Source: Sinomonas atrocyanea (GTDB lineage Bacteria; Actinomycetota; Actinomycetes; Actinomycetales; Micrococcaceae). From it: a stretch of DNA of 64,000 bases. Below the pieces are notes generated by a model. The model was not told where the DNA came from and made no database searches. It worked only from the letters and a program-made list of their open reading frames with translations. This document shows positions 6,691-21,964 of the stretch, piece after piece. A program made the translations under genes and the position numbers. Numbering within the stretch: the first letter of the stretch is position 1; each line of letters starts with the position of its first letter. The stretch spans positions 434,001 through 498,000 of the forward strand of contig NZ_JAUSRH010000001.1 of NCBI RefSeq assembly GCF_030811715.1, given 5' to 3'.

Positions 6691-8622
<1,932 letters not shown>

Positions 8623-8637
8623 ACTTCAACTGTGTGC

Positions 8638-9150
8638 TCAGGCCCGGAGCCACTCCGCGGCCTCGTCGGCGATCTGCTCGGGCTGCTCGGCAATGTCGAA
8701 GACGCGGCCGCGCTCGTCGTCCTGGAGGGGCTCGAGCGTGGCGAGCTGCGAGTCCAGGAGGGAGACGGGCATGAAGTGCCCCGGGCGCGCGGCCATGCGG
8801 GCGGCGAGGAGCTCGCGCGCGCCGTGCAGGTGCACGAACACCGTGTCCGGGGCCGCCTCGCGGATGATGTCCCGGTAGGCGCGCTTGAGCGCGCTGCAGC
8901 CGATCACCATGGTCCCCGAGGCCCCGGCCATCTTCTCCCCGATCAGGCGCAGCCAGGGCTCCCGGTCGGCGTCGTCGAGCGGGATGCCCGCCGCCATCTT
9001 GGCGACATTGGCCTCCGGATGCAGGTCGTCTCCGTCGAGGAACTCCCCGCCCAGCTCCTGGGCGAGGAGCCGGCCCACGGTGCTCTTGCCGCATCCGGAG
9101 ACGCCCATCGCGATGACGTGGAACGTCCCGCCGTCCGCTGCGTCGGTCAC
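8638..9150 (-). CDS. gntK: Gluconokinase
   Basis: The 170-residue kinase has a Walker A motif GVSGCGKST at 16-24, [20 protein letters not shown] and the GntK-type [10 protein letters not shown]. It phosphorylates D-gluconate to 6-phosphogluconate. The GTG start at 9150 overlaps the manD stop by four bases (GTGA), so translation is probably coupled. Placement in a uronate operon suggests that aldonates are co-metabolised, or that the kinase has a relaxed substrate range. Confidence 0.9.
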
Positions 9151-10376
9151 CAGTCGTGCACCGTGCCGTCGATGAGGCGGTTGTACGGCAGGTAGGCCTG
9201 CTGGTAGGGGAAGGAGTTCGCGGCCTCCTCGTTGAACTCGACGCCGAGGCCGGGCTTGTCGCCCGGGTGGAGGTAGCCGTCCTTGAAGGTCATCGACTGC
9301 TCGAAGACGGTGTTGGTCTTCTCGGAGTGCTGCATGTACTCCTGGATCCCGTAGTTGTGGATCGCAAGGCCCACGTGCAGCTGGGCGGCGAAGCCCACCG
9401 GGGAGATGTCCGTGGGGCCATGGAAGCCGGACTTGATCTGGTACTGGGCCGCGTAGTCCATGACCTTCTTCAGCGGCGAGATGCCGCCGAAGTGGGTGGA
9501 GGCAGCCCGGACGTAGTCGATGAGCTGCTCGCGGATGAGCAGCTGGAAGTCCCAGACGGTGTTGAAGATCTCGCCGATCGCGAGCGGGGTGGTGGTGTGC
9601 TGGCGGACCAGGCGCAGGCCCTCCTGGTTCTCGGCCGGAGTGCAGTCCTCGAGCCAGAACAGGTCGTAGGGCTCGAGCGCCTTGCCGAGCTTGGCGGCCT
9701 GCATGGGGGTCATGCGGTGGTGGCCGTCGTGCAGGAGCGGGATCTCGGGGCCGAACTCGTTGCGCACGGCCTCGAAGACCGTGGGGAGGTGGCGCAGGTA
9801 GGCCCGGGTGTCCCAGTCCTCCTCCTGCGGGTACGCGCCGCGGCCCGCGGGCTCGTAGTCGTAGCGCTCCCCCGAGGCCTGGGACTGGGCGGCCACCCCG
9901 TAGACGGCCTTGATGCCCGGGATGGCGGTCTGGACGCGGATGGACTTGTAGCCGAGCTCGAGGTGCTCGCGGATCGAGTCGAACAGCGAGGGAAGGTCCG
10001 TGCCCGAGGCATGCCCGTAGGCGCGCAGTCCGCGGCGGGACGCGCCGCCGAGGAGCTGGTAGACCGGCAGGCCCGCCACCTTGCCCTTGATGTCCCACAG
10101 GGCCATGTCCACGGCGGCGATCGCAGCCATCGTCACCGGCCCCCGCCGCCAGTAGGAGGAGCGGTAGAGGAACTGCCAGGTGTCCTCGATCATGTGCGGG
10201 TCCCGGCCCACGAGCAGCTGGGCCACGTGCTCCTTGAGGTACGCCGCCACGGCGAGCTCGCGCCCATTGAGGGTCGCATCGCCGATCCCGGTGATCCCCT
10301 CGTCCGTGGTGACCTTCAGGGTCACGAAGTTGCGCGTCGGGCTCGTCACGAAGACTTCAGCGGAGACGATCTTCAT
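9147..10376 (-). CDS. manD: D-mannonate dehydratase (enolase superfamily, ManD/RspA type)
   Basis: The 409-residue enzyme matches the ManD subgroup in length and motifs. The expected metal ligands are Asp217 in LLHDGHHRM, Glu243 in WLEDCTP and Glu269 in [14 protein letters not shown] sequence follows near residue 315 and the C-terminus is [12 protein letters not shown]. It dehydrates D-mannonate to 2-keto-3-deoxygluconate, the step after UxuB. The promoter at 10414-10461 heads the manD-gntK unit. Confidence 0.9.
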
Positions 10377-10413
10377 CGTCGCTTCCTTTCACTGGGGCCG
10401 GGGGCTCGCGTTC

Positions 10414-10461
10414 AGCATACTGACGGGCCGGGGTGATGGCAAACGTTTGCCGCACATTGCC
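10414..10461 (-). promoter_or_regulatory. manD promoter with three-part LacI operator
   Basis: GGCAAACGTTTGCC (10438-10451), a perfect 14-bp palindrome, is followed by TTGCC at 10457-10461. The minus-strand -35 TTGCCA (10442-10437) is part of the left arm, with -10 TATGCT (10419-10414) after 17 bp. Confidence 0.85.
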
Positions 10462-10469
10462 AGGGGCGG

Positions 10470-20752: not shown

Positions 20753-20812
20753 GGCTCTCCTCAATCGTTCCTCGCGGCCGCCATCCAGTGGCGGCCGTCA
20801 CAGAGTGCTCTC

Positions 20813-20861
20813 ACTCTAGGCAGGGGGAATGACTGATGGTAAACGTTTGCCAGAAGTTGCC
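20813..20861 (-). promoter_or_regulatory. TIM/Gfo promoter with three-part LacI operator
   Basis: GGTAAACGTTTGCC (20838-20851) is followed by TTGCC at 20857-20861. On the minus strand -35 TTACCA (20842-20837) and -10 TAGAGT (20818-20813) are 18 bp apart. Confidence 0.75.
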
Positions 20862-20866
20862 GCTTT

Positions 20867-21910
20867 TCAGACCCACGCGCCCGGCGGGTAGGAGCGCGCG
20901 TACACGTCCTTGATGAGCCGCAGGGACTCGGACGCCTCGCGCGCTCCGATCCAGAACCGCTCCCCCGCAGCGACCGAGCGGTAGAAGTCTGCGATGAGCA
21001 GCTGGTGGGACGCGCCCCAGTAGCTGCGCTCCCCCGGAAGGACGCCGGCCTCCTCGACCGTCTCGATGCGCCCATCGGCGTACCGGACGGTGAGGGTCCC
21101 GCGCAGGCTCAGCTCCGCGGACTCGGTCTGGATGTCCAGGGTCACGGGGGCGTTCAGGCCGTTCGCGTTCGTCGCGAAGAAGACGCTGCGCGGGCCGCCG
21201 GCATGCTCCAGCACCAGGTCCGCGGTGTCCTCAACCTCGATCACCCCGCCCAGCAGCCGGGCCGAGGCCCGGCCGTCGACCACCCTCGCGGGCCCGACGA
21301 GCCACTGGAGCAGGTCGAGCGTGTGGATCGCCTGGTTCATGAGAAGGCCGCCGCCGCTGCCGGCCCAGGTGCCGCGCCAGGGTCGGGCAGCGTAGTACTC
21401 GGCCGGCCGGTGCCACATGACCGTGGCCTGGGCGCCGAGCACGGCGCCCAGGGTGCCGCCGGCCAGGAGGTCGCGCATCGCGGTGACCGGCGCGTTGTAG
21501 CGGTTCTGGAAGCACACGCCGAGCTGGGTCCGCCCGGCCAGCCACGCGGCGTCGGCCGCCTCGATGAGGCGCTCCGCGTCTGCGAGGGTGTGCGCGAGCG
21601 GCTTCTCCGTCAGGACGTGCACGCCCGCGGCGAGCGCCTCGAGCGCCTCCGGGACGTGCTGGCTGTGGGGGGTGCAGACGTGGACGACGTCGGCGCCTCC
21701 TCCGGCGAGCAGCTCACCGACGCTCGCGTGGCCGGGCACGCCGTGGGCAGCGGAGGCGGCCTCGCGCCGCGCCGGGTCCGGGTCGACGACGCCGACGAGC
21801 CGCACCGCCCCGTGGGCTGCGAGCGCGCCGATCGCTGCGAGGTGCTGGGCCGAGATGTCGCCGCAGCCGATCACGGCGGCGCGGAGCACGGGCGGTTCCT
21901 CAGGCTGCAT
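20867..21910 (-). CDS. Gfo/Idh/MocA-family oxidoreductase (second copy)
   Basis: The 347-residue protein has AAVIGCGDISAQHLAAIG (Rossmann, 11-28), VLTEKPLAHT near 100 and SGGGLLMNQAIHTLDLLQWL near 180. It differs clearly from the other copy, so it is not a recent duplicate. It appears to be transcribed alone from a promoter carrying the same operator. TAGCGT lies 6 nt before the ATG, which would give a leaderless message, though GGAGGG just before the ATG could also act as a ribosome-binding site. Confidence 0.8.
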   Translation of the reverse strand: MQPEEPPVLRAAVIGCGDISAQHLAAIGALAAHGAVRLVGVVDPDPARREAASAAHGVPGHASVGELLAGGGADVVHVCTPHSQHVPEALEALAAGVHVLTEKPLAHTLADAERLIEAADAAWLAGRTQLGVCFQNRYNAPVTAMRDLLAGGTLGAVLGAQATVMWHRPAEYYAARPWRGTWAGSGGGLLMNQAIHTLDLLQWLVGPARVVDGRASARLLGGVIEVEDTADLVLEHAGGPRSVFFATNANGLNAPVTLDIQTESAELSLRGTLTVRYADGRIETVEEAGVLPGERSYWGASHQLLIADFYRSVAAGERFWIGAREASESLRLIKDVYARSYPPGAWV

Positions 21911-21916
21911 CCCTCC

Positions 21917-21964
21917 ACGCTAGTGAGCCGCCCGCGGAGCCGCAATCGGTTGCCACCATGTGCC
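21917..21964 (-). promoter_or_regulatory. Second Gfo/Idh promoter with three-part LacI operator
   Basis: CGCAATCGGTTGCC (21941-21954) is followed by GTGCC at 21960-21964, the weakest of the five copies. On the minus strand -35 TTGCGG (21945-21940) and -10 TAGCGT (21922-21917) are 17 bp apart. Confidence 0.65.

Follow-up and report, generated by a model that had tools for sequence, protein, structure and literature searches.

The window considered here, a stretch of 64,000 nucleotides from Sinomonas atrocyanea (contig NZ_JAUSRH010000001.1, positions 434,001 to 498,000 of the forward strand), contains five operator-like sites of 24 bp, in each of which a palindrome of the LacI type (the core) is accompanied by a third, outer half-site. 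The surrounding genes make up a glucuronate/uronate cluster that includes the gene of a LacI-family repressor, and the five sites form one regulon-like set (Table 1). Glucuronate isomerase (uxaC), encoded in the operon that starts with a solute-binding protein (SBP), scores above the NCBIfam cut-off (1.3e-163). The NCBIfam search of the SBP itself gave no match, and the permeases and the sugar-phosphate-isomerase-like gene are named from their translations.

The repressor carries an N-terminal LacI helix-turn-helix (HTH) domain and is 98% identical to the repressor of the closest named locus, Sinomonas atrocyanea. Its matches among solved LacI-family proteins (phmmer) are CcpA (2o20, 3e-36), PurR (1jh9, 9.1e-29) and LacI (1efa, 8.6e-28). 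None of the named NCBIfam LacI equivalogs (RbsR, CytR, UriR and others) reaches its cut-off, the best scores being those of RbsR (211.8 bits vs. a cut-off of 382) and CytR (198.9 vs. 436). By context it appears UxuR-like: sites precede uidA, manD and the uxaC-containing SBP operon, and the site at 17565 lies between the SBP gene and lacI.

Table 1. Genes, predicted promoters and half-sites of the cluster in window positions, with palindrome pairs at other LacI-HTH loci.
Feature	Position	Strand	Remark
GPH-family glucuronide transporter gene	5216..6610	-	downstream of uidA; PRK09848.1 1.9e-172
uidA, beta-glucuronidase (putative target)	6691..8544	-	PRK10150.1 1.2e-263
uidA promoter	8575..8603	-	-35 TTGCCG (8598-8603), 17 bp, -10 TAGGCT (8575-8580)
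uidA core palindrome GGCAAACGATTGCC	8599..8612	-	
uidA outer half-site GGCAA	8618..8622	-	exact in 8/8 Sinomonas uidA orthologs found
manD, D-mannonate dehydratase ManD (putative target)	9147..10376	-	ManoateDhtManD 1.6e-206
gluconokinase-like gene	after manD		named from translation
manD promoter	10414..10442	-	-35 TTGCCA, 17 bp, -10 TATGCT
manD core palindrome GGCAAACGTTTGCC	10438..10451	-	
manD outer half-site GGCAA	10457..10461	-	exact in 13/13 Sinomonas manD promoters with core (14 orthologs)
uxuB-like gene	10470-11774		follows SBP operon; closest model fructuronate reductase, below cut-off
SBP, two permeases, sugar-phosphate-isomerase-like, glucuronate isomerase	11816..17401	-	presumed target operon
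SBP operon promoter	17541..17569	-	-35 TTGCCG, 17 bp, -10 TAGGCT
SBP/lacI core palindrome GGCAATCGCTTGCC	17565..17578	-	apparently -35 for both divergent promoters
SBP/lacI outer half-site GGCAA	17584..17588	-	exact in 15/15 Sinomonas
lacI, LacI-family repressor gene	17609..18649	+	ATG similarly placed in 15 Sinomonas loci (by eye)
LacI HTH domain PF00356	C1:451666-451803		above cut-off, within window lacI
weakly IolG-like gene	18713-19879		under curated cut-off
weakly IolE-like gene	19892-20752	-	under curated cut-off
iolE-like promoter	20813..20842	-	-35 TTACCA, 18 bp, -10 TAGAGT
iolE-like core palindrome GGCAAACGTTTACC	20838..20851	-	
iolE-like outer half-site GGCAA	20857..20861	-	
Gfo/Idh-type gene (Gfo2)	20867-21910	-	weak NCBIfam match
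Gfo2 promoter	21917..21945	-	-35 TTGCGG, 17 bp, -10 TAGCGT
Gfo2 core palindrome GGCAACCGATTGCG	21941..21954	-	
Gfo2 outer half-site GGCAC	21960..21964	-	degenerate
palindrome pair CGTGAACGTTCACG	L143:2662 and 2686		
palindrome pair CGGAAGCGCTTCCG	L148:1407 and 1431		
palindrome pair TGAGACCGGTCTCA	L153:1743 and 1768		

An earlier note on this DNA had listed five sites (8599-8622, 10438-10461, 17565-17588, 20838-20861 and 21941-21964) with a third TTGCC 5 bp beyond the palindrome, and all five are found at these positions; the third half is exact in four of them and reads GTGCC in the fifth (21941). On the minus strand the layout is GGCAA-N5-GGCAAnCGnTTGCC, with mismatches in two cores: three of the five are exact, the other two deviate by one base in the plus-strand left half (GGTAA at 20838, CGCAA at 21941), and the central CG is present in every site. 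As an even palindrome with a central CG, the core has the form of a LacI-family operator and would be bound by the repressor of the window. Allowing up to two mismatches, no further core match was found elsewhere within the 64 kb. Under a model of independent bases with the composition of the window, the probability of at least four exact third halves out of five at one fixed offset is about 4e-12.

All five sites are part of a predicted minus-strand promoter, in which the gene-proximal half of the palindrome (the inner TTGCC plus the next base) serves as the -35 element and a TANNNT -10 element is placed 17-18 bp past it; these promoters are consensus matches. The third half had been described as lying always on the same side, which is borne out in all five cases, although the promoters had been overlooked: because each site sits in a minus-strand promoter, the constant side is the upstream, promoter-distal one. 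At 17565, the palindrome may double as the -35 element of lacI. On the lacI side of this site, 14/15 Sinomonas loci have TNNAAT 17-18 bp past TTGCCA, with ATG a few bases on. The lacI transcript of the window looks leaderless (17565-17609; TGGAAT, 6 nt, ATG). At the Gfo/Idh promoter (21910-21945) TAGCGT is located 6 nt upstream of the ATG, and this mRNA may therefore be leaderless too.

Conservation within the genus was assessed in the window and, for 14 other Sinomonas genomes, in stretches of ~13-20 kb, counting palindromes within one mismatch. Together these contain 61 palindromes, 60 of which have TANNNT 16-19 bp away on one side or both, and this yields 58 distinct promoter-oriented sites. 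Exact GGCAA is found upstream in 51/58 (spacing 4, 5 and 6 in 4, 40 and 7 sites, respectively); none of the 58 has it at any of the other spacings between 0 and 19. An operator consisting of the palindrome alone, which is usual but not defining in the LacI/GalR family, is contradicted by the extra exact half-site at these 51 positions. Because the genomes are related, the counts are not independent, and kinship is addressed by the comparison of orthologs. The core is present at 8/8 uidA, 13/14 manD, 15/15 SBP, 14/14 IolE-like and 11/12 Gfo2 orthologs, and an exact outer half at 8, 13, 15, 13 and 4 of them, respectively; counts are kept as scored, another palindrome having been scored for iolE of locus L041. 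By eye, this iolE has nearby GGCAA-N7 before a two-mismatch core, with TACGGT 17 bp on.

In the same five ortholog sets the mean pairwise identity of the outer half amounts to 1.00, 1.00, 1.00, 0.91 and 0.83, measured at the best spacing from 4 to 6, which favours the outer half somewhat. Values for the core halves are 0.88-1.00, for the spacers 0.37-0.57 and for the upstream flanks 0.29-0.53. By this measure the outer half is about as conserved as the core, with spacer and flanks drifting. Together, the counts support a third half-site that is kept far above chance, both in position and in sequence.

A search of the whole genome, as suggested in the earlier note, returned GGCAA-N4-6-core three times, all in this cluster, and the reversed-pattern control not at all. 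In the 15 Sinomonas genomes there are 44 matches, representing 40 palindromes, four of which are matched from both strands (reversed control again 0); 43 of the 44 lie near lacI by coordinates. The only match away from lacI is G001:C2:70927-70949. The genome of the window holds one extra exact palindrome (C3:217892), which is inside a 673-codon open frame and lacks an exact third half at spacings 4 to 6.

Nearer relatives outside the genus comprised 40 loci (L073-L112) from Arthrobacter, Pseudarthrobacter and Paenarthrobacter. An SBP ortholog is present in 34 of these, and the upstream regions of all 34 carry the core, preceded at spacing 5 by an outer half (25 GGCAA, 9 GACAA). Promoter-oriented sites, which occur in 35/40 loci, retain at least 4/5 bases of the outer half in 38/38 cases and all five in 27. 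Two Arthrobacter genomes display arrays of 4-5 helically spaced GGCAA/TTGCC half-sites upstream of uxaC (L090:2245-2290, L109:2135-2170). A mirrored fourth half on the promoter side, i.e. exact TTGCC at 6-7 bp, is found in 4/58 Sinomonas and 19/96 other sites.

Based on these data, we hypothesize five operator-promoter modules of a glucuronate/uronate regulon in which the same repressor reads the outer half as an alternative contact on the same face of the DNA, a proposal that we hold to be evenly poised between right and wrong. A LacI-family dimer on the core, with its hinge helices at the central CG, would cover the -35 element and shut the promoter, and a uronate-derived inducer would free the promoter from the repressor. 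The outer half, one helical turn upstream, would be contacted in a half-on register by a DNA-binding domain of the same repressor, and not via a second canonical dimer. Such an alternative contact would lengthen the stay of the repressor at the site and make repression or recapture sharper.

A more elaborate form of this mechanism, which appears quite improbable, would have the repressor step: the inducer-bound dimer, its hinges loosened, would shift from core-left and core-right to outer half and core-left, one turn upstream. This would free the -35 element with the repressor still docked beside RNA polymerase, and the repressor would so turn into an activator. Comparable switching between half-sites is known from AraC.

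The outer half may instead be bound by another protein, either the C-terminal domain of the RNA polymerase alpha subunit or a separate regulator ~50-55 bp upstream of the start, which we consider rather unlikely. In 51/58 Sinomonas sites it precedes the -35 element by 13-15 bp, a common position of activators or UP elements, and the spacers are often T-rich. However, it shares its sequence with the repressor half-site, in many cases down to the leading T (TGGCAA in 40/51 outer and 45/51 core halves), and it varies between G and A at base 2, as the core halves do. It also adjoins 7/22 palindromes, in six places that include the uxaC arrays of L090 and L109, that have no TANNNT at 16-19 bp on either side, and can therefore accompany the operator where the usual promoter spacing is missing. 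GGCAA is rare at promoter-like sites without a palindrome, being present at homologous offsets in 1/22 Sinomonas and 3/221 other sites (mean 0.47 per offset), a small control whose counts are slightly above the mean and weak either way. A narrower promoter control yielded a single site, and this one, too, has GGCAA at the corresponding offset.

Occupation of the outer half by a second canonical LacI dimer, one turn away from the core dimer and overlapping it, had been among the options of the earlier note and is improbable in the light of the same sites. At spacing 5 the overlapping bases match 3/5 of the expected partner-half positions in 37/40 sites, but this match follows from the core sequence itself, and at spacing 4 the partner half matches 0/5 in 4/4 sites. 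The CpG expected for the hinge helices is found at the centre in just 2/51, spacings 4 and 6 occur, and the geometry of LacI/PurR should leave two dimers at a distance of 10 bp on one face in collision. A passive role of the outer half, through phased A/T steps that cause DNA curvature or as the leftover of a half-site duplication, is very unlikely: GGCAA repeats do space AA steps one turn apart, and spacers are T-rich in the Arthrobacter set, but the outer half keeps its G, G and C next to a drifting spacer.

Whether the outer half covaries with either of the core halves was tried as a further criterion and dropped. Asymmetric cores match the right half in 15/16 cases, at sites preselected for an outer half G[GA]CAA, and a survey of the family in 395 genomes gave 5 for the right and 4 for the left half, from which no preference can be claimed. 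Over 395 genomes for each pattern, the survey counted GACAA-GGCAA-TTGTC four times (three of identical type; reversed control 3), GGCAA-GGCAA-TTGTC twice (control 1), GGCAA-GACAA-TTGCC once (control 0) and GACAA-GACAA-TTGCC twice (control 0), with one G259 palindrome entering two of these counts; a relative of the repressor (64-74% identity) is present in 6/9 short survey loci, two loci being one place. The idea that LacI operators throughout the genome of the window carry an outer half was likewise rejected after scanning ~3 kb loci of 11 LacI-HTH genes. Among the 10 other loci, five have palindromes, with an outer half only at L149:1239, where the surroundings look coding-like by eye, and the remaining five have no palindromes that passed a crude filter. 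Three of the other loci display a different multi-site layout, namely identical palindromes paired at a distance of 24-25 bp (Table 1).

A further set of relatives, 30 loci (L113-L142) with more divergent repressors, 67-71% identical to that of the window, bears on the proposal that the repressor itself reads the outer half. The Sinomonas-like hinge motif SSQAR[GA]LS occurs in only three of them (L114, L128, L140), which are the three with an exact outer half; in the remaining 27 the hinge reads N[SA]QAKALS, and none of these has an exact outer half at spacing 5. The palindrome can thus outlast the outer half, whose loss accompanies a changed regulator. Such an association fits a regulator that reads the outer half. 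The earlier note had named relatives that keep the palindrome and lose the third half as evidence against its proposal; such relatives were not found in Sinomonas and among the nearer Arthrobacter loci, and they make up most of L113-L142. Some of these loci (L119, L130, L132 and L134, sites near 7700) have GGCAA upstream of the core at a distance of roughly two turns of the helix. Exact GGCAA at spacing 17 is found in 7/96 non-Sinomonas sites.

Several observations weigh against a repressor that reads the outer half. In L113-L142, where the palindrome stays, the outer half is exact in 3/58 sites and retains at least 4/5 bases in 22/58. The 27 loci with N[SA]QAKALS probably represent one lineage, and some repressors of L073-L112 with the hinges SSQAKGLS and SSQAQGLS retain the outer half. 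The Gfo2 site of the window has a degenerate outer half, and the Gfo2 orthologs carry an exact one in just 4/11 cases. One of the seven palindromes apparently lacking a promoter (L101) belongs to an SBP promoter with a degenerate -10 element. Nine of the covariation sites are from one clade, and L052 and L113 are one contig. With T-rich spacers at many outer sites, a role of RNA polymerase or of DNA shape is possible.

The two-half palindrome is the usual view of LacI-family operators and is assumed by motif searches. A third half with core-like conservation and one-turn phase, directed inward, where there should be no room for a second canonical dimer, suggests a binding mode beyond this standard model, and the DNA contacts of the repressor probably go beyond the two-part textbook model. 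Five natural promoters and their relatives make this unusual mode directly testable.

Published descriptions present LacI-family operators as palindromes, most of them of even length (16-22 nt) and with a central CG, and autoregulation is reported for 72% of the studied regulators (Ravcheev et al., 2014; PMC4052901); the terms "half-site" and "direct repeat" have no occurrence in the main text of this survey of LacI regulons. Among the matches listed, titles and the beginnings of abstracts describe no conserved third half-site in a LacI-family operator, and no fixed promoter-embedded module of two plus one half-sites conserved across a genus was found described there. The crevar sites of CcpA (PMC5263246) are similar in that a LacI-family regulator departs from its standard operator; they differ in being two inverted repeats with a variable spacer, and a third half does not appear in the abstract.

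According to the parts of the literature consulted, the nearest precedents are MalR of S. lividans (PMC5526262) and CytR of E. coli (PMC3454398). MalR and AcrC of Actinoplanes are actinobacterial LacI-family regulators like the repressor of the window. In the accounts consulted they differ from it in half-site sequence, in malE repeats that lie downstream of the promoter, and in direct or inverted repeats with spacers of 3-15 bp at other sites, no fixed two-plus-one module on a -35 element being found there. CytR is an anti-activator that works with CRP through weak motifs, whereas the core of the window is a near-perfect palindrome with a central CG on the -35 element. The likeness to the five sites lies in the half-sites themselves, which MalR uses as inverted and direct repeats and CytR in either inverted or direct orientation, at variable distances that keep the helical phase.

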